From Okeania sp. SIO2B3 (GTDB lineage Bacteria > Cyanobacteriota > Cyanobacteriia > Cyanobacteriales > Microcoleaceae), in the NCBI RefSeq assembly GCF_010672525.1, contig NZ_JAAHGH010000044.1, forward strand, positions 1 through 54,062: a stretch of DNA of 54,062 bases, read 5' to 3'. A program made the translations under genes and the position numbers. A model generated the notes under the pieces. It was not told where the DNA came from. It searched no databases and saw only the letters and a list, made by a program, of their open reading frames with translations. How positions within the stretch are numbered: the stretch's first letter is position 1; every line of letters begins with the position of its first letter. Below, piece by piece: positions 12,677-25,130 of this stretch.

Positions 12677-14020
12677 ATGACCAACACAACCTCACCCCCT
12701 ACATCATTCACCGAAGAAATCAGCAAACCAGACTTCACATTTGACCCCAGTATTCGGCGTAATCATGCAGAAAAGTACCGAACCTCAGAATGGTACGACG
12801 GTCGTGGGGAAATAAAGGCAGTAGAAGATGGTCGCTCATTTGAGATTTCTGCAACCTTTACCCTCAAATCAGAAGTAAAGTTGGTAAACGGAGTCTTAGA
12901 CCCATCTAATCCAGTTTTAGCAGAAATCTACAAAAGTCGCGGTCGTTGTGTAGCAGTTGTCGATCAAACAGTGGATGAACTGTACGGAGAATCACTGCAA
13001 GCTTACTTTAAGCACAATGAGATTCCTCTAGAAACTCTAGTCTGTCGCGCATGGGAATCAGACAAAACTCCAGAAACAGTCCAGCACATACTCAAATTCT
13101 TAGGTAAAGATGGCTGTGATGTATCCCGCAACGAACCGGTATTAATTATCGGAGGTGGCGTACTCAGCGATGTGGCAGGTTTAGCCTGTGCTTTGCAGCA
13201 CCGACGAACACCTTATGTAATGATTGGAAGTTCAATTGTTGCAGCTATTGACGCCGGACCATCGCCTCGTACCTGCACAAATGGTCAGCTATTTAAAAAT
13301 AGTATCGGTGCCTATCACCCTCCCGTCATAACCATAGTAGACCGTAGCTTATTCCGTACTTTGGCAAAAGGTCATATCCGCAATGGGATGTCAGAAATTA
13401 TCAAAATGGCAGTAACTGATGACCCAGTGTTATTCGATTTACTAGAAGAATACGGTCCACGGTTACTTGAAACCCATTTTGCTAACTTTGATGCGGATGA
13501 GGAACTGATTAAAGTAGCTGATGAAGTAATTTATCGAGCATTGTATTCCTACATGAAGCATGAGGGAACAAATATGTTCGAGACCTATCAAGACAGACCC
13601 CACGCTTACGGTCACACTTGGAGTCCCAAGTTTGAGCCAGTTGCCAAATTGATGCACGGTCATGCTGTTACTATTGGTATGGCTTTTGGAGCAACCTTGG
13701 CAATGGAAATGGGTTGGTTAGAAAAAGGCGATCGCGACAGAATAGTGGCATTGTGTAGCTCTCTTGGTTTATCAGTTTATCATCCTATCCTTGAAGACAG
13801 TGAATTGATGATTCAAGGACAGAAAAATATGCGTCGCAAGCGGGGTAGTAGTGGGTTATGGGCACCTTTACCTACAGGTATTGGTGCTTGTAGTTTTGCT
13901 GGAGAAGTACCTCCAGACTTATTAATATCTACTGTGAAGGAACATAAGAATTTTTGTACCTCTTTGCCAAATGAAGGAAAAGGCGAACAGATATATTTGA
14001 GTGACCTTGGTTTGGAGTAG
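12677..14020 (+). CDS. mysA: Desmethyl-4-deoxygadusol synthase (MAA step 1)
   Basis: A 447-residue member of the sugar-phosphate cyclase branch of dehydroquinate synthases. In MAA synthesis it cyclises sedoheptulose 7-phosphate to desmethyl-4-deoxygadusol using NAD and a metal. Visible are the NAD-binding GGG (159-161, IIGGGVLSDVAGLACA), likely metal ligands Glu240 (MSEIIKMAV), a His in HAYGHTW (309-313) and His329 (MHGHAVTIGMAFG), and SPRTCTNGQLFKNSIGAYHPP. Identification as DDGS rather than the close relative 2-epi-5-epi-valiolone synthase rests mainly on the neighbours mysB, mysC and mysD. It starts at ATG 12677 and leads the locus. Confidence 0.92.
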   Translation: MTNTTSPPTSFTEEISKPDFTFDPSIRRNHAEKYRTSEWYDGRGEIKAVEDGRSFEISATFTLKSEVKLVNGVLDPSNPVLAEIYKSRGRCVAVVDQTVDELYGESLQAYFKHNEIPLETLVCRAWESDKTPETVQHILKFLGKDGCDVSRNEPVLIIGGGVLSDVAGLACALQHRRTPYVMIGSSIVAAIDAGPSPRTCTNGQLFKNSIGAYHPPVITIVDRSLFRTLAKGHIRNGMSEIIKMAVTDDPVLFDLLEEYGPRLLETHFANFDADEELIKVADEVIYRALYSYMKHEGTNMFETYQDRPHAYGHTWSPKFEPVAKLMHGHAVTIGMAFGATLAMEMGWLEKGDRDRIVALCSSLGLSVYHPILEDSELMIQGQKNMRRKRGSSGLWAPLPTGIGACSFAGEVPPDLLISTVKEHKNFCTSLPNEGKGEQIYLSDLGLE

Positions 14021-14123
14021 AAAAAACAGCAATTTTGTTGTGGAGTAGAGAAAACAAGAAATTCCTCCCTACTCCCTTTTCAAAAAAGAGCGACGGTGGA
14101 CAAATATCACAAAATTTTCATTG

Positions 14124-14216
14124 TATAGCAGAAGGAAGAAGGAAGAAGGAAAAGTATTACTTTGTCTGAATTTTCAACTTTTGAACTGTCAAACATCTTT
14201 CCTTCTACTGCTATTA
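14124..14216. repeat. Small inverted-repeat element, TAGCAGAAGGAA family
   Basis: Bounded by TATAGCAGAAGGAA and TTCCTTCTACTGCTATTA, an imperfect inverted repeat around a roughly 60-base core that includes TACTTTGTCTGAATTTTCAAC. A second copy lies at 43145-43275. It fills part of the 387-base mysA-mysB gap; no gene is present in that gap. Confidence 0.6.
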
Positions 14217-14407
14217 TGGATAATTCAATCTTTACCCCACCTTACTGTTATCTTTTTCCTGATGGGTTTAACCCACGCGCGTCACTCATGCTGTCAATGA
14301 GGTTGGTGGAGCGATCGTCGCCATCGAACATTCTCAGTGACTCATTGACTAACAATTAACAACTACTGAGTACTGACTACTTGTTCAATAAGTAATGGAA
14401 TAGAAAT

Positions 14408-15238
14408 GTGACAACCGTTGTAAATATAGAAACTGCCAGACCAGTTACACCATTGGGTATTTTGGTAGAACAACTTGAGAAAACTGTCAAGATGGCAGAG
14501 ACCGCAGATATACCTGTAGAACTTGCTGAGGCGATAAAAGAAGCCTATCAATTAGCAGAAGGTCTTGACCCCTACATTGAAAATAATACTACCCAGGAGT
14601 CAGATGCGCTGGCAGCTTTAGCACAAAAGACTCGCCAGGAACCCTGGAATTTACGATTTTCTGATGGTGAAACTGTACGTCAGTTGGAACAGGAAATGTT
14701 ATCTGGACATATTGAGGGGCAAACCCTGAAAATGTTCGTTTATATGACTGGGGCAAAACGTATCCTAGAAATTGGGATGTTTACTGGGTATTCTGCATTG
14801 GCAATGGCAGAAGCTCTACCAGAAGATGGATATGAAATTGCTTGTGAAGTCGATCAATATGTGGCTGACTTTGCCAAATCTTGTTTTGAAAAGTCTCCTG
14901 ATGGGAAGAAAATATCAGTGGAAGTAGCGCCAGCTTTAGAAACAATGCAAAAGTTGGCAGATACAGGAGAAACTTTTGATTTAGTATTTATTGATGCTGA
15001 TAAAAAAGAGTATATAGAATATTTGAAAATGCTCTTAGATACAAATTTATTAGCACCAAATGGATTTATTTGTGTTGATAATACTTTACTGCAAGGGCAA
15101 CCTTATCTCCCACCAGAAAAACGTACTGCCAATGGAGAAGCGATCGCTCAATTTAACCGTTTTGTTGCAGAAGACCCCAGAGTTGAACAAGTTTTATTGC
15201 CTTTGCGAGATGGGGTAACTATTATTAGGCGAAAGTAG
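14408..15238 (+). CDS. mysB: 4-deoxygadusol-forming O-methyltransferase (MAA step 2)
   Basis: A SAM-dependent class I methyltransferase related to caffeoyl-CoA O-methyltransferases, 276 aa. Motif I is EIGMFTGYSALAMAEALPEDG from residue 121; the metal-site segment FDLVFIDADKKEY and FICVDNTLLQG are present. In the pathway it methylates the mysA product to 4-deoxygadusol, the common MAA core. The GTG start at 14408 follows TAATGGAATAGAAAT. The product assignment relies on its place between mysA and mysC. Confidence 0.92.
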   Translation: MTTVVNIETARPVTPLGILVEQLEKTVKMAETADIPVELAEAIKEAYQLAEGLDPYIENNTTQESDALAALAQKTRQEPWNLRFSDGETVRQLEQEMLSGHIEGQTLKMFVYMTGAKRILEIGMFTGYSALAMAEALPEDGYEIACEVDQYVADFAKSCFEKSPDGKKISVEVAPALETMQKLADTGETFDLVFIDADKKEYIEYLKMLLDTNLLAPNGFICVDNTLLQGQPYLPPEKRTANGEAIAQFNRFVAEDPRVEQVLLPLRDGVTIIRRK

Positions 15239-15307
15239 CAATTATCGAAGGACAAATAATTTCTCTTATTTAGGTAAAATCATTCTAATTTTTCGGAGGA
15301 CAATCAA

Positions 15308-15658
15308 ATGTTAATTACAAGCTTGAAGAGCAAACTGCATAGAGTAAAAGTAACCGAAGCACAATTGTACTATGAAGGTTCTATTACTATTGACGAAGAA
15401 CTACTAAAAACTGCGGGTATTCTTGCCCATGAAAAAGTACAGGTAGTTAACGTTAATAATGGTTCCCGACTGGAAACATATACTATTCCTGGTGAATGGG
15501 GTAGCCGAACTATTTGTCTTAATGGTCCTGCTGCCAGAATGAATTCTGTAGGCGACGAAGTAATAATTATTGCCTACGCTCAAATGACAGAAGATGAGGC
15601 ACTTTTACATCGTCCGAAAGTAATTCTGGTGGATGAAAACAACAATCCACTTACTTAA
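15308..15658 (+). CDS. panD: Aspartate 1-decarboxylase (pyruvoyl enzyme) inside the MAA locus
   Basis: Decarboxylates L-aspartate to beta-alanine, normally for pantothenate and CoA. All key residues fall at the classical numbers: Lys9, Tyr22, the self-cleavage pair Gly24-Ser25 in YYEGS, Arg54 and Tyr58. The 116-aa protein therefore looks active once processed to its pyruvoyl form. A strong GGAGGA site lies nine bases before the ATG. It follows mysB by 69 bases on the same strand and precedes a hairpin terminator and mysC. A panD gene is not part of the MAA clusters I know; it may supply beta-alanine as a building block or may be the ordinary CoA gene placed here. Confidence 0.95.
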
Positions 15659-15680
15659 CTCAAGTCTACATTAGACAACC

Positions 15681-15720
15681 TTCATAGAGGCAATATTAAT
15701 ATTGTCTCTATGAAAAATTA
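15681..15720 (+). terminator. Hairpin between panD and mysC
   Basis: TTCATAGAG (15681-15689) pairs with CTCTATGAA (15706-15714), extended inside by CAATATTAATATTG. AAAATTA follows, so it is a weak or partial terminator. It may separate mysAB-panD from the downstream mysC-transporter-mysD part. Confidence 0.55.
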
Positions 15721-15820
15721 CAATTTGGGAATTTAAAATTGATAGAATTTATTCCCTGTCAAAAACTTCAAGTTGCTTAACAGTTCTAATGTAAAATAAT
15801 GTCTTTACCAAACTACTAAT

Positions 15821-17185
15821 ATGGCACTCATACTATTTGTTCAAGGGCGCGCTTATGCACTGTGCCAAAATATTGGTACTATTACTTTATTATTAATTGT
15901 TTTACCCTTTAATTTACTAATAGTAATACCATCAATTATCTGGAATTTTATCGGTAAAAATTTTCAAAAAAAAGTAGTAGTTCAAGACCAGAAAAATGTC
16001 TTAATTACGGGTGCAAAAATGACAAAATCTTTGCAACTTGCCCGTTCATTTCATGCAGCAGGACACAAAGTTTTTCTATTAGATTCTAATAAATATTGGT
16101 TATCAGGAAATAGGTTTTCTAATGCCGTTACAGGTTTTTACACTGTACCTGCACCAAAGAAAAATTGGGATGGTTATTGCCAGGAATTACTGGAGATTGT
16201 CAAGAAAGAAAAGATAGATATATTTATCCCTGTCTCGGGTGCTGCTGTTTGCTACTATGAATCTTTGGTAAAACCAATTTTATCTCCCCATTGTGAAGTA
16301 TTTCACTTTGACCCTGACATTACTAAAATGTTAGATAATAAATTTACTTTTATTGAAAAAGCTAAAAGTTTTGGTTTGTCTGTACCAAAATCATTTTTGA
16401 TTACAGATCCAGAACAAATTCTCAATTTTGACTTTGCTACTGATGGGAGTAAATATATTCTCAAAAGTATTTCTTACGACTCAGTGCGTCGTTTAAATAT
16501 GACAAAACTGCCGATGAATTCCAAATCAAAAATGGAGGAATTTATCAACAGTTTACCAATTAGTGAAGAGAATCCCTGGATTATGCAGGAATTTGTGAAA
16601 GGCAAAGAATATTGTACCCATAGCACTGTCAGAAAAGGAAAAATTCGACTGTATTGCTGTTGTGAATCATCAGAATTTCAAGTCAATTATCACCATATTC
16701 ATAAACCTCAAATTTATGAGTGGGTAGAAAAATTTGTCCGAGAATTAAATATTACTGGGCAAATTTCCTTTGACTTTATTGAAACAGAAGATGGTCGAGT
16801 TTATCCTATTGAATGTAATCCGAGAACTCACTCAGCTATTACCACATTTCACGACCATCCAGGGGTAGCAGATACTTATTTAAAAGATAGTAAAAATGAA
16901 AATGAAGCTTCACTAATACCACTGCAAAATAGTAAACCTACTTATTGGACTTACCATGAACTATGGCGACTGAGAAAAATCAGGTCTTTGGGGCAATTAA
17001 AAAGTTGGATAAAGAGAATTACTACTGGAACAGATGCAATTTTTCAGGTGAATGATCCATTACCATTTTTGATGGTACACCATTGGCAAATACCTTTACT
17101 ATTGTTGGGGAATCTACGAAAATTAAAAAGCTGGGTGAGCATCGACTTTTGTATTGGGAAACTGGTCGAATTGCAAGAAGAATAA
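15821..17185 (+). CDS. mysC: ATP-grasp mycosporine-glycine synthase (MAA step 3)
   Basis: Couples 4-deoxygadusol to an amino acid, usually glycine, with ATP, giving a mycosporine. 454 aa. An N-terminal hydrophobic segment at about residues 18-45 (TLLLIVLPFNLLIVIPSIIW) suggests membrane association, as in MysC homologues. The Rossmann-like part starts at NVLITGAK (about 65). The ATP-grasp core includes WIMQEFVKGKEYCTHS and the metal site FIETEDGRVYPIECNPRTHS. It is the first gene after the hairpin that follows panD. Confidence 0.92.
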   Translation: MALILFVQGRAYALCQNIGTITLLLIVLPFNLLIVIPSIIWNFIGKNFQKKVVVQDQKNVLITGAKMTKSLQLARSFHAAGHKVFLLDSNKYWLSGNRFSNAVTGFYTVPAPKKNWDGYCQELLEIVKKEKIDIFIPVSGAAVCYYESLVKPILSPHCEVFHFDPDITKMLDNKFTFIEKAKSFGLSVPKSFLITDPEQILNFDFATDGSKYILKSISYDSVRRLNMTKLPMNSKSKMEEFINSLPISEENPWIMQEFVKGKEYCTHSTVRKGKIRLYCCCESSEFQVNYHHIHKPQIYEWVEKFVRELNITGQISFDFIETEDGRVYPIECNPRTHSAITTFHDHPGVADTYLKDSKNENEASLIPLQNSKPTYWTYHELWRLRKIRSLGQLKSWIKRITTGTDAIFQVNDPLPFLMVHHWQIPLLLLGNLRKLKSWVSIDFCIGKLVELQEE

Positions 17186-17389
17186 ATATTGTGAAGAATC
17201 CTCTAATATACTAAAAAAAACTCTAGAAATAAATCACAAATATTTCCAGTAGCTAGGGATTAAATTTAGGTAGATTTTGAAAAAAAATCTAGCTTTAATA
17301 TTCTTTAATTTTCGGCTTTGCTTTGAGGCAAAAACAAAGTTTATTTGCAAATAACATTAGCAACAAACTAAAAGCTAACCCACTAACTA

Positions 17390-18823
17390 ATGGAGAAACA
17401 AATTTGGATTGCGATAACATTTATTGCCTTTTTGCTGTCATTTACAGTAGTAGGTATTTACTCCGCAACCCAAAAACAAAACACAACAACTGATTACCTG
17501 CTTGCAAGTAGAAATGTTAATCCTTGGTTGACAGCATTATCAGCGATGGCAACACATCAGAGTGGCTATCTATTTATTGCTACGATTGGTTTTACGTACA
17601 AGGTTGGATTTGCTTCTATTTGGATCGCCATCGCCCCTCGTATAGGAGACTATATTGCTTGGTGGTTAGTATTCAAAAGATTGAGGTTAGTTTCTCAGCA
17701 AACAAACTCAGAGACAGTTTCCTCATTCTTGGGTCAAGAAAATCTGGGGCAAAAAAATCAAGGGCGGTTGATTACAATAATTTCAGCATTAATTATCATA
17801 GTATTTCTAGGCACTTATGCCTCTGCTCAATTATTAGCAGCAAGCAAAGGATTGAATGCTATATTTGGCTGGAACTATCAAATAGGGATTATTATTGGAG
17901 CTGTAATTGTGGTTGCCTACTGTTTTTCAGGAGGTATCCGTGCTTCTATCTGGACTGACTCCGTGCAGGCAGTTTTAATGATAGTATCTTTGTGGGTTTT
18001 GTTTATAGTAAGTTTAATTGCCTGTGGAGGGTTTGGAGAACTTTGGGTTAAGCTTAATGCCATTGACCCCACCTTAACAAATTGGATACCTGCCAATTTA
18101 CCTTGGGGATTTTTTCCTTACTTTTTGGGATGGTTGGCGGCAGGGTTTGCTGTAGTTGGTCAACCTCATATATTAGTGAGAGGAATGGCAATTGACTCCC
18201 CAGATAACATAGCCTTAGCTCGTAATATAAAAGTTGTCTGCAGTCTAATGAATTCACTGGCTGCTTTTGGTATAGGATTAACTGCCAGAGTATTGTTGCC
18301 AGACTTAATGACATCTGGGGACCCAGAGTTAGCATTACCGAATTTATCTATAGAATTATTACCAGCAGTTTTGGTAGGGTTGATGTTAGCAGGACTTTTT
18401 TCTGCAGCTATTTCGACAGCAGACTCCCAAATATTATCATGTTCTGCTGCATTAAGTCAAGATTTAGTTCCTAGTGCTACTCACTCTTATCGAAAAGCTA
18501 AAATTGCCACCCTGGTTGTTACCGCTCTTGTGTTAGCGATCGCTCTAACAACAAACAAGAGTGTATTTGCTGTGATAATTTTCTCTTGGTCAGTTTTAGC
18601 TTGCGGTTTAGGTCCGTTGTTGGTATTGCGGGTATGGCAAAAACCTGTAAGTGTGCCAGTGGCAATAACAATGATGATTATTGGCATAGTCGTTTCCATT
18701 ATTTGGAAATTAGGACTTAACCTATCAAGTGCTATTTATCAAGTATTTCCCGGTATGGTAGCAGGTTTTATTGTTTATGGAATTGCTAATTTTCTGATTG
18801 AGCCTAAAAATTTGAGTAAATAA
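17390..18823 (+). CDS. PutP-type sodium/solute symporter, copy 1
   Basis: A 477-residue membrane protein with about 13 hydrophobic helices, of the solute:sodium symporter (SSS) family. The PutP-like Na+ site signatures are LSAMATHQSG (near residue 52) and STADSQILSCSAALSQD (about 343-359), close to PutP LSAGASDMSG and STADSQLL. Family substrates are amino acids, betaines and similar zwitterions; the actual substrate cannot be read here. It lies between mysC and mysD and is followed by a second copy, so it may import an MAA building block or move the MAA itself. Both are inference. Confidence 0.9.
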   Translation: MEKQIWIAITFIAFLLSFTVVGIYSATQKQNTTTDYLLASRNVNPWLTALSAMATHQSGYLFIATIGFTYKVGFASIWIAIAPRIGDYIAWWLVFKRLRLVSQQTNSETVSSFLGQENLGQKNQGRLITIISALIIIVFLGTYASAQLLAASKGLNAIFGWNYQIGIIIGAVIVVAYCFSGGIRASIWTDSVQAVLMIVSLWVLFIVSLIACGGFGELWVKLNAIDPTLTNWIPANLPWGFFPYFLGWLAAGFAVVGQPHILVRGMAIDSPDNIALARNIKVVCSLMNSLAAFGIGLTARVLLPDLMTSGDPELALPNLSIELLPAVLVGLMLAGLFSAAISTADSQILSCSAALSQDLVPSATHSYRKAKIATLVVTALVLAIALTTNKSVFAVIIFSWSVLACGLGPLLVLRVWQKPVSVPVAITMMIIGIVVSIIWKLGLNLSSAIYQVFPGMVAGFIVYGIANFLIEPKNLSK

Positions 18824-18938
18824 TAAAATTATTAGGTAGCTGAAGCTGCGAGGTAATAATTTTGAATTGATAATTGATAATTTTGAATTGTAGCGAAGCG
18901 ACTTGACTTTTGAGTTCCGCCCAGTATGTTACCTAATT

Positions 18939-20375
18939 ATGGATAGACAAATTTGGATTGCAATAACATTTATTGCCTTTTTACTATTATTTACAGTAGT
19001 AGGCATTTACTCCGCAACCCAAAAACAAAACACAACAAATGATTACCTATTAGCAAGTAGAAATGTTAATCCGTGGCTGACAGCACTATCAGCAATGGCA
19101 ACAGGTCAAAGTGGGTATTTATTTATTGGAGTAATTGGCTTTACTTACAAAGTGGGAGTTGCTTCCATTTGGATACCTGTTGCTTGGGCCATAGGAGACT
19201 ATATTGCTTGGTGGCTGATATTCAAAAAGTTGAGATTAGTCTCTCAGCAAACTAATTCAGATACAGTGTCCTCATTCCTCGGTCAAGAAAATCTAGAGCA
19301 AGGCAAAAATAATGGGCGCTGGATTACAATAATTTCAGCCTTAATTACTATTGCTTTTCTCGGTACTTATGCCTCCGCTCAACTGGTAGCAGCAAGCAAA
19401 GGACTAAATGCAATATTTGGCTGGAACTATCAATTAGGAGTTATCATTGGAGCTATAATTGTAGTGATATATTGCTTTTCAGGAGGCATTCGTGCTTCTA
19501 TCTGGACTGACTCAGTGCAGGCAATTTTGATGATTGGCTCATTGCTGGTTTTGTGTGCAGTAGGTTTGATAGAATGTGGTGGTTTTGGAGGACTTTGGAC
19601 AAAACTCAATGCAATTGACCCCACACTCACAAATTGGATTCCTACCAATCTACCTTGGGGATTTTTTCCCTACTTTTTAGGATGGGTAGTGGCAGGGTTT
19701 GGCGCCGTCGGTCAGCCTCAAATATTAGTGCGAGCAATGGCAATTGACTCTGCAGAGAATGTAGCTTTGGCTCGAAACATCAAATTTGTCTGCGGTCAAA
19801 TGAACTCTGCCACAGCTTTTGGTATTGGGTTAACAGCAAGAGCATTGTTACCAGATTTAATCACATCCAGTGACCCAGAGTTGGCATTACCTTATCTATC
19901 TATGGAACTGTTACCAGCAGTTATGGTGGGGTTAATGTTAGCCGGATTATTTTCCGCAGCGATTTCTACAGCAGACTCTCAGATACTATCTTGTTCGGCT
20001 GCACTCAGTCAAGACTTGATTCCTAATATAGCTGATTCTTATAGAATGGCTAAAATTGCTACGTTAGTTGTCACAGCTATTGTATTAGCAATTGCCCTAA
20101 CAGGAGACAATAACGTATTCGCTTTAGTAATTTTCTCTTGGTCAGTTTTAGCTTGTGGTTTAGGACCGTTATTGGTATTGCGGGTTTGGCAAAAGCCAGT
20201 GAGTCTACCAGTAGCGATCGCCATGATGATTATTGGAATTATTGTTTCCATAGCCTGGAATTTAGGACTTGGTTTATCTAGTGCTATTTATGAAGTGCTT
20301 CCCGGTATGGCTGCAGGCTTTATTGTTTATGGAATTGTTCATTTTTTGATCGACTCTAGAGAGTTGAGTCAATAA
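18939..20375 (+). CDS. PutP-type sodium/solute symporter, tandem copy 2
   Basis: A 478-residue paralogue of the preceding gene, near-identical in long stretches and with the same Na+ site (STADSQILSCSAALSQD). It differs around the substrate region: LSAMATGQSGYLFIGVIGF here, LSAMATHQSGYLFIATIGF in copy 1. The frame is open from TTG 18903, but ATG 18939 aligns with the start of copy 1 (MDRQIW and MEKQIW). Tandem duplication followed by divergence suggests selection for transport capacity or a second substrate. Confidence 0.9.
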   Translation: MDRQIWIAITFIAFLLLFTVVGIYSATQKQNTTNDYLLASRNVNPWLTALSAMATGQSGYLFIGVIGFTYKVGVASIWIPVAWAIGDYIAWWLIFKKLRLVSQQTNSDTVSSFLGQENLEQGKNNGRWITIISALITIAFLGTYASAQLVAASKGLNAIFGWNYQLGVIIGAIIVVIYCFSGGIRASIWTDSVQAILMIGSLLVLCAVGLIECGGFGGLWTKLNAIDPTLTNWIPTNLPWGFFPYFLGWVVAGFGAVGQPQILVRAMAIDSAENVALARNIKFVCGQMNSATAFGIGLTARALLPDLITSSDPELALPYLSMELLPAVMVGLMLAGLFSAAISTADSQILSCSAALSQDLIPNIADSYRMAKIATLVVTAIVLAIALTGDNNVFALVIFSWSVLACGLGPLLVLRVWQKPVSLPVAIAMMIIGIIVSIAWNLGLGLSSAIYEVLPGMAAGFIVYGIVHFLIDSRELSQ

Positions 20376-20450
20376 AAAAATTATACTACCTTATTTTATG
20401 TCCAAACTCTGCTAGAATTACAATTAAAATTTGTCATAGAGATAGGAAGA

Positions 20451-21137
20451 ATGTTTGTAGACACAAGTACAATAGACAAAGCTGTTGAAGGCTACAAAAA
20501 TATGTTAGCTTATCATTAGTATATTGAGAAGTTATTTGAAACCTTAGACAATCGCTTTGAATATGGAGAAAATGGGAAGCGACTTTTACCTGTCTCAAAA
20601 AAGAGGCTTTTTGCAAACTCAAATGATTATGCTTTATATAGTAAAGCGGAATACCCATGTGATATATGGCTGCCACCTTGGCACGGTCGTTTCTATGTTG
20701 ACATAGATTCTTTAGGAGAAGAACTCAGTAATATCTCTATTGATGACTATCCTACAGATCGAGTTATGCATTTGGCTTTTGTCTGGACGTGGATAGGGTA
20801 CAATGATGCTCATGTGGCTGATACAGAAAATCCCGAATGCTGGATTGGCTTTATGAAACCACAACCAACCGATCCTAAGACTCGTTTGTATGATGTCTGT
20901 GATATGGCATGGAAGTTCATACGCATTGAGACAACGACTGAAGAAGAATTTGAAGGATGGATTAAGGGACGCTTTTACCCTAATAACTTTGGCTCACAGT
21001 TAAACGGATATTGGGAAATAAAGCGTTTCCCTTTAGAACAGCTGTCTACCATGTATACAATTCAAACATTGGTTGTCTCTGAACTAACTGAAAAGTTCAA
21101 CCAATTAGGCAAAAACTCCACTGTTAAAAGTATGTAG
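20451..21137 (+). pseudogene. Unknown gene interrupted by an in-frame TAG
   Basis: ATG 20451 opens MFVDTSTIDKAVEGYKNMLAYH, then TAG at 20517-20519, then the same frame continues YIEKLFETLDNRFEYGENGK... to a stop at 21137 (about 228 codons in all). A single CAG-to-TAG change would explain it. The open part is acidic and soluble with many Trp and Tyr (WLPPWHGRFYVDID, WIGYNDAHVADTENPECWIG, YWEIKRFPLEQL). I do not recognise the family. It sits between symporter copy 2 and a duplicated symporter end, so it was probably brought in by a rearrangement. Re-initiation at ATG 20766 would give a 123-aa C-terminal piece. Confidence 0.6.
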
Positions 21138-21198
21138 TTGCCACAGGTTACGATCAACTCAAGCTGATCGTAACAACCATCTGATAATATCGTAACTC

Positions 21199-21398
21199 GA
21201 TTGCGGGTTTGGCAAAAACCTACAAGTGTGCCAGTAGCGATCGCTATGATGATTATTGGTATTATTGTTTCTATTGCCTGGAATTTAGGACTTGGTTTAT
21301 CTAGCGCTATTTATGAAGTTCTTCCCGGTATGGCTGCAGGCTTTATTTTTTATGGAATTGTTCATTTTTTGATCGACTCTAGAGAGTTGAGTCAATAA
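21199..21398 (+). pseudogene. Third symporter copy, C-terminal fragment
   Basis: Repeats the last 65 codons of symporter copy 2 and its downstream sequence (GAGTCAATAAAAAAATTATACTAC) almost exactly; the few bases at its left edge (CAAAAACCTACAAGTGTGCC) look more like copy 1. It has no start region and cannot make a transporter. It marks a segmental duplication bracketing the unknown gene at 20451-21137. Confidence 0.85.
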
Positions 21399-21529
21399 AA
21401 AAATTATACTACTTTGTATCGGTTTTATGAAGAGGAAAAAAGATGGACGCTACAAATAAAGTATCACGATTTGAAGGCAAAAGTTGAGAGCTTTGCTAGA
21501 ATTAAATGACATCTCATCATCACCGAGAA

Positions 21530-21738
21530 GGCGTTGCTGATTATGGGTATGATGCAAGCCCCCCGAGCAAGCCAAAATTGGGGGGAATAAAACTCTAAAA
21601 GTCCCCCTTGATCCCCCTCCCGTCCCCCGCAGGATCGGGGGAAGCCAGATGTTGCTGCGCTTTTTGTTGAACGGGGGATGCGCGGGGGCTTTACCAGAAC
21701 CAAACAATCGCACATTCATACTTCAATTCAGCAACGCC
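21530..21738. repeat. Inverted-repeat element, GGCGTTGCTGA family
   Basis: Bounded by GGCGTTGCTGATT and ATTCAGCAACGCC (13-bp inverted repeat with one mismatch), about 209 bases. The interior is rich in CCCCC/GGGGG blocks that can fold on themselves (CCCCCCGAGC with CAATTGGGGGG-like partners; CGGGGGATGCGCGGGGGCT). The reading frames in it are by-products of the GC-rich repeat. A solitary end of the same family follows the M14 peptidase gene at 48516. Confidence 0.7.
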
Positions 21739-21968
21739 ACCTAGAAAAGTTCTAACAGCTTTTGGTAATATATTTAATAGACTTGTCGCTTTATAACTTA
21801 CAGCGGTTTTCATGATTAGTAGACCACAGTAGGGGCGATTTCCTACGGAATGCTCCTAATTACGCGAATCGCCCCTACAGGGTTTTGGTTATGACGATGT
21901 GGTTCATCAATCTGAAAAGCGCTGTAAAAACCTCCCAAAAACCCTTAACTAATTGAATAGAAACAAAT
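21739..21968. other. mysD upstream region with a palindrome
   Basis: Contains AGACTTGTCGCTTTATAACTTA (21780-21801), also found at 42184-42205, and a palindrome in which AGTAGGGGCGATT (21827) pairs with AATCGCCCCTAC (21868). The palindrome core, CCTACGGAATGCTCC, is the reverse complement of the TTTGCGNAGCATTCCG repeat found at five other sites. It may form an RNA structure in the mysD leader. Confidence 0.5.
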
Positions 21969-23078
21969 ATGACATTAGAAAAAATTCCTCAGATTCAACC
22001 TTCATCCTTAACCACAATGCCAATGTTACGAGTATTGCACCTAGCAGGTTCCCTTGTATCTGACTTTTACTACAATTTATCAATACTCTATGCAAAAGAA
22101 GTAGTACAACCAGTGGGTGTCAGTAGCTACTATGCAGTGGTACACCCTGACAGTCTTTGGCAGTTAGGAACATCCTTAGATTCCTTGTCGGAAAAGATGT
22201 CTCTCCAGGATATGATTCCTCGACTACCTCAGATTGACGTAGTAGTTCCCCATATGTTCTGCTTTCCTGGAATGACCAGTTTCAGGGCTTTATTTGAGGA
22301 TATTATTGGTATCCCCATAGTTGGCTCACCATCCCATTGCACAGCATTAGCAACTAACAAAGCCCATACAAGAAATATTGTTTCTACATCAGGTGTTCGG
22401 GTTGCCAAAGCACAACAATTACGTCAGGGAGATAAATTAACAATGCAGCCGCCCTTTGTCGTGAAACCAACCTCAGAAGACAATTCTTTGGGTGTGACAT
22501 TGGTGCGGGATGAATCTCAAATAGAGGCAGCATTGAAAGTTGGGTTTGAACTAGACGAGACTTTGTTAGTTGAGGATTATATTCCTGGAAGGGAACTCCG
22601 TGTAGGTGTGGTTGAATATGAAGGTAAGTTGTCCGTCTTGCCGATGATAGAGTATTTAGTGACGGAGGAAAACCCTATTAGAACTGTACATGATAAGTTG
22701 GAGCTAAAATCAGACGGAACCCCTGGAAAACAACCTGAGAAACCAGAAGTAAAGCCAGTATGTCCAGCTAATGTCACACCAGAACTATTCGAGAAACTAG
22801 CAGATGCTGCCAAGAAAGCTCATGTTGCTTTAGGTTGTCGCGATTATTCTTTGTATGACTTCCGAGTCCATGCTGAAACCAACGAACCATATCTGCTGGA
22901 GGCTGGTTTGTTTTGGTCTTTCGGTAGAATTGGCATGATTTCCCGGATGCTTCAAGCTGATGGGCAAAATTTAGAAGATGTGGCTTTGCAACTATGGAGT
23001 GTAGCAGCAGGGAGGACTCGTGTAGCTTGTGGTTCGTTGTTTAAGTACAGCAAATCAGACCAAGTAGCAAAGGTATAG
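21969..23078 (+). CDS. mysD: D-Ala-D-Ala ligase-like MAA synthetase (MAA step 4)
   Basis: An ATP-grasp ligase of 369 aa that condenses a mono-substituted mycosporine with a second amino acid (serine, threonine or others), giving imino-MAAs such as shinorine. ATP-grasp landmarks are PPFVVKPTSEDNSLGV (about 161-176), LLVEDYIPGRELRVGVV and the C-terminal PYLLEAGLFWSFGRIGMISRM. It is separated from mysC by about 4.8 kb that holds the two symporters and the rearranged segment, so it is probably transcribed from its own promoter. MysD sets which amine enters, so its specificity bears on the role of panD. Confidence 0.92.
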   Translation: MTLEKIPQIQPSSLTTMPMLRVLHLAGSLVSDFYYNLSILYAKEVVQPVGVSSYYAVVHPDSLWQLGTSLDSLSEKMSLQDMIPRLPQIDVVVPHMFCFPGMTSFRALFEDIIGIPIVGSPSHCTALATNKAHTRNIVSTSGVRVAKAQQLRQGDKLTMQPPFVVKPTSEDNSLGVTLVRDESQIEAALKVGFELDETLLVEDYIPGRELRVGVVEYEGKLSVLPMIEYLVTEENPIRTVHDKLELKSDGTPGKQPEKPEVKPVCPANVTPELFEKLADAAKKAHVALGCRDYSLYDFRVHAETNEPYLLEAGLFWSFGRIGMISRMLQADGQNLEDVALQLWSVAAGRTRVACGSLFKYSKSDQVAKV

Positions 23079-24248: not shown

Positions 24249-25130
24249 CTAATCGTTAAAGCCTAAATGTTGGCGTAGAGAATGGCGCATAATATCAACT
24301 GGGACAGACTTTTGTAACCATAATTCCAAGGCAGTAGCCCCTTGTTGAACCAACATTTCTAATCCATCAATAGCGATCGCTCCTCTAACCAGAGCTTGTT
24401 GAAGAAATTTAGTAGGGTTGGGAATATAGATTAAATCATAGACTATTGCTCCTGGTGATAATAGATTGAACACTTTCTCATCTACTGGAGACTGCTCGAT
24501 ATTAGGATACATTCCAATCGGAGTAGTATTCACTAGCAAATCTGCCTGTGAAACTAATCTTGACATTTCATCCCACTTATGTATTTTTAGATTTACTGGT
24601 AAAGGAGAATTAATCCAACTTTGCCTAAAAGCAGCTAACTTTTCTTGAGACCGACCAATAACATGAATTTCTGCACAACCCAATTGAGCACAACCAGCCA
24701 CTACTGCGCGAGATGCACCACCATTACCTAAAATCAATGCTACCTTTTGATGCCAATCCCAATTATAAGTTTTTAGTGGAGAAAGAAATCCTTCCACATC
24801 TGTATTTGTCCCCTCCCATCCCTTATCTGTTTGATAAACAGTATTAACTGCCCCCACTGCTTGAGCAAGGTCTGAAACTTTTGACAAAAGTGGTAATATT
24901 GTTTGTTTGTGGGGAATAGTAATATTAAAACCCTGAATGCCAATAGCAGAAAACCCAGCAATAGCTGTTTTTAAATTTTCTGGTTTAATTGGAAAAGGTA
25001 GGTAAACATAATCTATTAAGTTTTGTTGATTATTTATTGCTTTAATTGCAGCATTGTGCATTACTGGAGACAAAGAATGTTCAACGGGATAGCCAATGAC
25101 TCCTAATAATTTTGTTTTACCTGTAATCAT
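24249..25130 (-). CDS. aroE: Shikimate dehydrogenase
   Basis: Reduces 3-dehydroshikimate to shikimate with NADPH in aromatic amino acid synthesis. 293 aa. It has the substrate motif YPVEHSLSPVMHN (about residues 14-26), the catalytic Lys in NITIPHKQT, Asp in NTDVEGF, the NADP Rossmann loop LGNGGASRAVV (GNGGAS in place of the usual GAGGA) and NTTPIGMYP. It is encoded alone on the minus strand between mobile remnants. Shikimate chemistry is next to the MAA pathway in textbooks, but no operon link exists here. Confidence 0.96.
   Translation of the reverse strand: MITGKTKLLGVIGYPVEHSLSPVMHNAAIKAINNQQNLIDYVYLPFPIKPENLKTAIAGFSAIGIQGFNITIPHKQTILPLLSKVSDLAQAVGAVNTVYQTDKGWEGTNTDVEGFLSPLKTYNWDWHQKVALILGNGGASRAVVAGCAQLGCAEIHVIGRSQEKLAAFRQSWINSPLPVNLKIHKWDEMSRLVSQADLLVNTTPIGMYPNIEQSPVDEKVFNLLSPGAIVYDLIYIPNPTKFLQQALVRGAIAIDGLEMLVQQGATALELWLQKSVPVDIMRHSLRQHLGFND

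Follow-up and report, generated by a model that had tools for sequence, protein, structure and literature searches.

Gene content of the mys locus

The window examined here (the whole stretch of 54,062 nucleotides, contig NZ_JAAHGH010000044.1 of Okeania sp. SIO2B3, from a genome of 10.0 Mb in 249 contigs) carries on its + strand, at 12677-23078, a locus for mycosporine-like amino acids (MAAs) in which the four core genes mysA, mysB, mysC and mysD are interleaved with panD, for an aspartate 1-decarboxylase, and with two tandem genes of the sodium:solute symporter (SSS) family. All seven reading frames are open, and stand in the following order.

12677..14020, + strand: mysA, 447 aa, sugar-phosphate cyclase, dehydroquinate synthase (DHQS)-like; Pfam PF01761/PF24621
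14408..15238, + strand: mysB, 276 aa, O-methyltransferase; PF01596, 180 bits
15308..15658, + strand: panD, 116 aa, aspartate 1-decarboxylase of a Rhodothermales-like type; TIGR00223 (NCBIfam), 161.6 bits v curated cut-off of 106; PF02261
15821..17185, + strand: mysC, 454 aa, ATP-grasp ligase; NF005315 (PRK06849), 552 v 406; PF02655, 28.4 v 23.2 bits
17390..18823, + strand: sss1, sodium:solute symporter of a mys-associated subclade; PF00474, 200.8 v 22.8; TIGR00813, 190 v 184; placed by tree
18939..20375, + strand: sss2, tandem symporter with 83% identity to sss1, closest to the copy in Okeania SIO1I7
21969..23078, + strand: mysD, 369 aa, D-Ala-D-Ala-ligase-like; PF07478, 77 v 24 bits

Despite matching dehydroquinate synthase models, MysA falls below the aroB cut-off (142.7 v 305 bits) and so is not acceptable as the housekeeping AroB; it is instead a distinct cyclase of the DHQS family, as expected of a mysABCD cluster, whose O-methyltransferase, ATP-grasp ligase and D-Ala-D-Ala-ligase-like enzyme are likewise present as MysB, MysC and MysD. 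MysD scores under the cut-off of every Ddl model shown, and its profile matches solved Ddl structures (best 2e-27). By gene content the locus is a mysABCD cluster, with an MAA as its predicted product. The sequence-only reading of this DNA had placed the four core genes on one strand, panD between mysB and mysC, and two symporters in tandem between mysC and mysD, and each of these placements is correct. The compact cyanobacterial cluster, as described in sections of PMC9918943 and PMC10510106, has the same four enzyme families in the same order on a single strand, but lacks the interposed panD and SSS genes. Spacing differs also: 387 bp separate mysA from mysB here, versus 14-16 bp in Roseofilum, Symploca and Moorena SIO3H5. 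Clusters enlarged by MysE, MysF, MysH, MysI or MysC2/MysC3 similarly grow by gene addition and horizontal transfer, but there the additions are biosynthetic enzymes, and section 7 of the paper concerned names neither panD nor SSS (PMC10510106). More generally, the open-licence literature, covered partly as titles and the beginnings of abstracts, yielded no link of panD or a symporter to MAA clusters and no co-mention of mycosporine with aspartate decarboxylase. Neither a panD nor an SSS protein is named in an MAA locus in the available sections of PMC11888242, PMC9918943, PMC11983340, PMC4665425, PMC6627687, PMC10384724 and PMC10510106; an unspecified transporter is present in Brasilonema MAA clusters, according to part of PMC9918943.

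We consider it likely that the two additions are passengers of unlike kind: panD would be a gene for pantothenate and coenzyme A (CoA) that is lodged in the locus, while the symporters would be part of the MAA system.

Recurrence, type and copy number of panD

Fourteen other genomes share the order mysB-panD-mysC, so the arrangement is more than chance, and the possibility raised with the sequence-only reading, that it is unique to this genome, can be set aside. We compared an order sample of 148 genomes, chosen independently of mys genes, and used a family sample and named genomes in addition. Among loci fetched from sampled genomes, mysB and mysC flank an open panD in 12 genomes besides this one: three of Okeania (G164, G156, G160), five of genus g86 (G157, G173, G167, G161, G165), G118, and three of genus g36 (G034, G141, G057). 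A scan of the named genomes with the window PanD, from which the best 80 of 479 relatives were kept, gave 13 mys-linked cases among those 80, from Okeania, Hydrocoleum, Trichodesmium metagenome-assembled genomes (MAGs), Symploca, Moorena SIO3H5 and Roseofilum. Contig coordinates show eleven of these to be genomes of the first set already, and the loci L068 and L069 are extra, bringing the total to at least 15 genomes, the window's included. Among order-sample genomes with a MysC match, the linkage occurs in 5/62.

In passing the family cut-off the encoded protein resembles housekeeping PanD (TIGR00223), from which it differs by its location among genes of secondary metabolism. The translation contains the Gly-Ser self-cleavage site at 24-25, and catalytic residues of E. 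coli PanD (Lys9, His11, Gly24-Ser25, Arg54, Tyr58) occupy equal positions; the product is predicted to decarboxylate aspartate. Among the best 80 of 479 relatives, the closest from outside the cyanobacteria are those of Rhodothermales, and identity is 62-74% to the best non-cyanobacterial sequences, compared with 42-56% to ordinary cyanobacterial PanD. In a quick tree of 132 columns (126 rows, 108 once near-identical ones were removed), with support measured only by the Shimodaira-Hasegawa-like approximate likelihood ratio test (SH-aLRT), 14 mys-linked rows, one of them decayed, fall within a 17-row cyanobacterial clade (95). This clade is nested in one of 56 rows (98) that also holds Prochloron, Cyanosarcina and Rhodothermales/Balneolales, outside which the ordinary cyanobacterial PanDs lie. 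Constraining the 18 rows of the window type into one group costs nothing in an approximately unbiased (AU) test on 105 rows, three fragments having been dropped. Transfer of this PanD type into cyanobacteria, presumably in that direction, is likely but not proved.

The window panD is the single PF02261 match in its genome, in which panB and panC have one match each, on other contigs. In the order sample, 130/148 genomes have a panD match, and just four of the 130 have more than one; the eight with the window type have no second panD, and 122 of the remaining 140 have one taken as ordinary, although these genes were typed by sequence only in part and the counts ignore relatedness. This type thus substitutes for the ordinary one. 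Across the order and family samples and the named genomes together, another intact panD match accompanies the type in two of 19 genomes (Okeania SIO1I7 and a Centralia MAG); a dedicated pathway paralogue should accompany an ordinary panD far more often, and hence the pattern favours a housekeeping role. Loss from the locus tells a similar story. Between mysB and mysC, G152 and G153 retain remnants of panD, and each carries an intact ordinary panD at another place; in the Roseofilum genus G093 and G076 have no panD at this site and an ordinary one elsewhere, whereas G034, G141 and G057 of that genus have the mys-linked panD only. In the four genomes in which the linked gene is lost or decayed, mysA-D contain no stops in the aligned stretches. 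Further, the PanD type occurs without nearby mys genes in five cyanobacteria (G110, Prochloron, Cyanosarcina and two MAGs); a MysC match is absent from G110 and from Prochloron (G023), and Cyanosarcina (G043) has one elsewhere, in two pieces. Together, the stand-in pattern, the decay at four loci and the occurrence away from mys genes favour housekeeping, and panD is most likely outside the MAA system, as a sole and movable vitamin gene. It would then be the only aspartate decarboxylase of its genome, supplying beta-alanine to pantothenate and CoA, and would stay at the mys locus because it is essential wherever no other panD exists. As a separate observation, four MysC-bearing cyanobacteria (G042, G014, G018, G092) gave no panD match at all.

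As for how the linkage spread, all panD-linked MysCs fall in one 19-row clade (SH-aLRT 99), which includes three rows without panD, so that one origin of the linkage is enough. Relative to the related loci L013 and L020, the locus of Moorena SIO3H5 is 97-98% identical in MysA, 93-96% in MysB and 95-97% in SSS, but 64% in MysC; it carries panD, and its MysC groups with that of Symploca (99). From this divergence and the presence of panD, it seems that panD and mysC arrived there together, replacing a resident mysC. The DNA of the window panD is 79% identical to that of O. hirsuta versus 88% to that of Symploca, the reverse of mysA (93% versus 74%), and blastn from the window gives an unbroken match through panD and its flanks into mysC for Symploca and Moorena, but not for O. 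hirsuta. A hairpin follows panD:

15681..15714, + strand: hairpin 3' of panD; a scan of the genome with its pattern matches here only

Okeania SIO3I5, two Symploca and Moorena SIO3H5 have it in the same position; across the five rows, 98.2% of cells are paired and 3/11 pairs are changed on both sides, with a covariation score reached in 0/500 shuffles. When one Symploca stretch (L068) is folded alone, its lowest-energy structure does not contain the hairpin. The hairpin was considered as an intrinsic terminator and rejected, as no T run follows. The identity contrasts, the unbroken blastn stretch and the common hairpin point to exchange of panD at a fixed site. We thus envisage a xenologue, akin to Rhodothermales/Balneolales genes, that was linked once to mysC and then may have travelled between genera with the locus, at least once as a panD-mysC cassette, probably by homologous recombination in the flanking mysB and mysC. 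In loci of other Okeania, of Hydrocoleum and of Trichodesmium (L066, L070-L072, L074, L076) panD is preceded by an inverted repeat TCGGTAACA...TGTTACCGA, visible by eye and with variations; it is not upstream of the window panD, and could be operator-like or form a transcript hairpin.

The symporters and the weighing of alternatives

SSS-family proteins are importers. The product of sss1 passes both superfamily cut-offs (TIGR00813 and PF00474), and matches to it at E up to 1e-100 occur in 20/148 genomes, in 11 of which a copy lies no more than 6 kb from mysC. In a tree of 34 rows, 11 of them from panD-fetched loci, the window copies fall in a 26-row clade (98) made up of 15 order-sample rows and these 11; rows under about 330 aa were excluded, among them a two-piece copy in G046, the deleted second copy of Okeania SIO3I5 and a truncated copy in G050. 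Linkage to mysC extends to 22/26 rows of the clade, and to 11/15 of its order-sample copies, which lie within 7 kb of mysC, one more standing beside a mysD-like gene; the sequence-only reading had asked whether SSS neighbours recur, and they do. MysC is present in all 13 order-sample genomes of the clade, against a base rate of 62/148, while an 8-row sister group is never mysC-linked and 5/8 of its genomes are without MysC. Seven family codes are represented among the linked cases, which are independent of panD. Within the clade, sss2 joins other copies from its genus, and sss1 those of Okeania SIO2F4, SIO3I5 and Trichodesmium. Tandem copies exist also in Trichodesmium MAG_R02, and are eroded in Okeania SIO3I5 and G153.

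On this evidence the symporters probably belong to the MAA system. As importers by family, they would likely serve re-uptake of leaked MAAs or uptake of amino acids; the tandem pair are most likely sodium-coupled importers that recover leaked product, or bring in the amino acids attached by MysC and MysD. An alternative that we hold to be unlikely is that these are general, proline-like amino-acid importers near mysC by accident. The best named model is indeed PutP, although sss1 lies far under its cut-off (TIGR02121, 267.5 v 515.5 bits), and some copies stand away from mysC, but an association that spans seven family codes and places 11 of 20 genomes within 6 kb, together with the existence of a distinct and unlinked sister clade, speaks against it. 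Two other proposals were rejected. PanF, also of the SSS family, would suit a neighbour of panD, but sss1 misses its cut-off widely (TIGR02119, 161.5 v 328 bits). Nor do panD and the symporters form one module: SSS lies beside mysC in nine order-sample genomes with a panD-less mys locus (G019, G024, G027, G042, G046, G061, G084, G120, G127), and three loci of the Roseofilum genus with panD have no SSS in the stretch compared. The self-contained module proposed in the sequence-only reading therefore stands in part. Its own transport is supported, by association of the SSS subclade with mysC only; its own precursor supply is unsupported as a default, since panD is a sole copy, lost or decayed in four mys loci whose genomes have another, and its type exists in five cyanobacteria without mys genes nearby.

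Several points weigh against regarding panD as a lodged vitamin gene and the symporters as MAA components. The PanD trees comprise about 130 columns with SH-aLRT as their sole support, and a single clade for all 43 cyanobacterial PanDs, though disfavoured by 31.9 log units, falls short of formal rejection (AU p 0.058). Sole-copy status is by itself unremarkable, since genomes mostly hold one panD, and Okeania SIO1I7 (G164) retains an intact mys-linked panD next to two ordinary ones. As for the symporters, four of the 15 copies from the order sample lie away from mysC. Persistence of the linkage past speciation and transfer could reflect a role for panD in MAA metabolism, and MysC itself differs: residue 342 is Thr in 18/18 rows of the panD clade that have this column, and Met in 42/44 others (the remaining two being Thr and Val; 63 MysCs compared). 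On an alternative reading, the panD-associated MysC, or MysD, might ligate the beta-alanine made by PanD to 4-deoxygadusol, giving a beta-alanine mycosporine, with the vitamin role shared or secondary; more specifically, panD-mysC might be a transferable beta-alanine module, in which a MysC with Thr342 in place of Met performs the ligation. We regard the former as improbable and the latter as an equally long shot. The apparent joint arrival of panD and mysC in Moorena SIO3H5 speaks for beta-alanine ligation, and losses of the linked gene are compatible with it, given that beta-alanine could still come from an ordinary panD elsewhere. Precedents are published, at least in the sections available: beta-alanine MAAs as a class (PMC4665425, PMC6627687), among them mycosporine-beta-alanine from a sea anemone (a patent cited in PMC4665425), euhalothece-362, for which a beta-alanine origin is proposed (PMC4665425), and mycosporine-threonine-beta-alanine from a red alga (PMC6627687); further, Nostoc MysCs are proposed to use other amino acids, Orn/Lys (PMC10510106). 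A review table, however, lists beta-alanine MAAs for Cnidaria and Rhodophyta only, so beta-alanine is not, as far as that table goes, a known substituent of the usual cyanobacterial MAAs (PMC10384724).

The residue itself is confounded with descent, and is thus a lead for a test rather than evidence of specificity; Thr342 is found also in clade members that lack panD, as well as in one MysC from elsewhere in the tree. It is one of eight clade-specific MysC positions by the threshold used, and lies seven residues past the ECNPR motif, in a short predicted helix of the AlphaFold2 model (mean predicted local distance difference test score, pLDDT, of 74). Sequence profiles gave no usable match for this residue to any solved structure; its spacing from the ExN motif resembles what we assume to be that of the second-substrate site in Ddl. 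Against beta-alanine ligation are, moreover, that panD is lost where another panD is present and mysA-D are still open, that the PanD type exists without nearby mys genes, and that G042 has a mys locus with closely related MysA, MysB, SSS and MysD yet no panD match. It is also conceivable, though distinctly unlikely, that panD is a housekeeping gene whose position is adaptive, either because its expression (and, by implication, transcription) together with the mys genes ties the supply of CoA to UV or salt stress, or because an essential gene protects a dispensable sunscreen locus from being lost. The linkage is found repeatedly across several genera, palindromes adjoin panD, and mys genes are present in 11 of 12 sampled genomes of the family's two linkage-bearing genera (the twelfth is incomplete and outside the test), compared with MysC in 2/8 genomes of its other genera. 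These retention counts, however, ignore habitat and relatedness, and the mys genes are still open in G152 and G153 after panD decayed there.

If panD is, as we favour, a vitamin gene that is merely housed here, then these marine cyanobacteria, two Trichodesmium MAGs among them, keep their sole copy of an essential-vitamin gene in a sunscreen locus that is itself dispensable; the evolution of MAA loci would be tied to CoA supply, and the case would warn that membership of a biosynthetic cluster does not by itself place a gene in the pathway. A concrete candidate for uptake of MAAs or their precursors is provided by the SSS subclade associated with mys genes. Should beta-alanine ligation occur after all, beta-alanine mycosporines would be products of Okeania, Trichodesmium, Symploca, Moorena and Roseofilum, with one gene serving vitamin and sunscreen synthesis and, where present, a dedicated sodium symporter serving re-uptake.

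Intergenic remnants and neighbouring features

Between sss2 and mysD lies an interval of 1.6 kb, holding a broken orphan reading frame and part of a third symporter copy:

20451..21137, + strand: orphan reading frame with one in-frame stop
21200..21471, + strand: partial third copy, comprising the 3' end of a symporter and its downstream flank; a duplication remnant

The partial copy and the end of sss2 both match one and the same stretch of L062, L070 and L034. No relative of the orphan frame was present among the loci compared, and a 123-aa part of it has no Pfam, NCBIfam or PHROG family. The orphan with its stop and the partial symporter copy imply that the region between sss2 and mysD was duplicated and then eroded, and 20451-21471 has the appearance of an insertion within duplicated symporter DNA. 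The reading frame of sss2 can also be called from a TTG further upstream, at 18903.

In the AlphaFold2 model of MysC, residues 2-46 (15824-15958) form a long, hydrophobic-rich N-terminal helix (pLDDT about 60), which suggests membrane attachment of the ligase. Prediction of the MysD product from two omega-loop residues, following part of PMC11983340, was dropped because the corresponding alignment columns could not be identified. The MysD alignment does not include L016 and L017. In two genomes mysD is doubled within a single mys locus (L025 of G157 and L036 of G153). The mysA of loci L010, L014, L015, L018, L157 and L163 has just 36-38% identity to that of the window, which may already be known, given the two distant MysA clades reported in the available part of PMC10510106.

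The mys locus of Moorena SIO3H5 has two EamA-type transporters around a nitroreductase (L069:10126-13500; Pfam matches for the first transporter and the nitroreductase), and in Roseofilum acuticapitatum (L003) an EamA-like frame, similar by eye, lies between panD and mysC. In the window, a C-terminal fragment of TnpB follows mysD, and aroE, for shikimate dehydrogenase, lies at 24249-25130 on the strand opposite to the mys genes, ~1.2 kb downstream of mysD.

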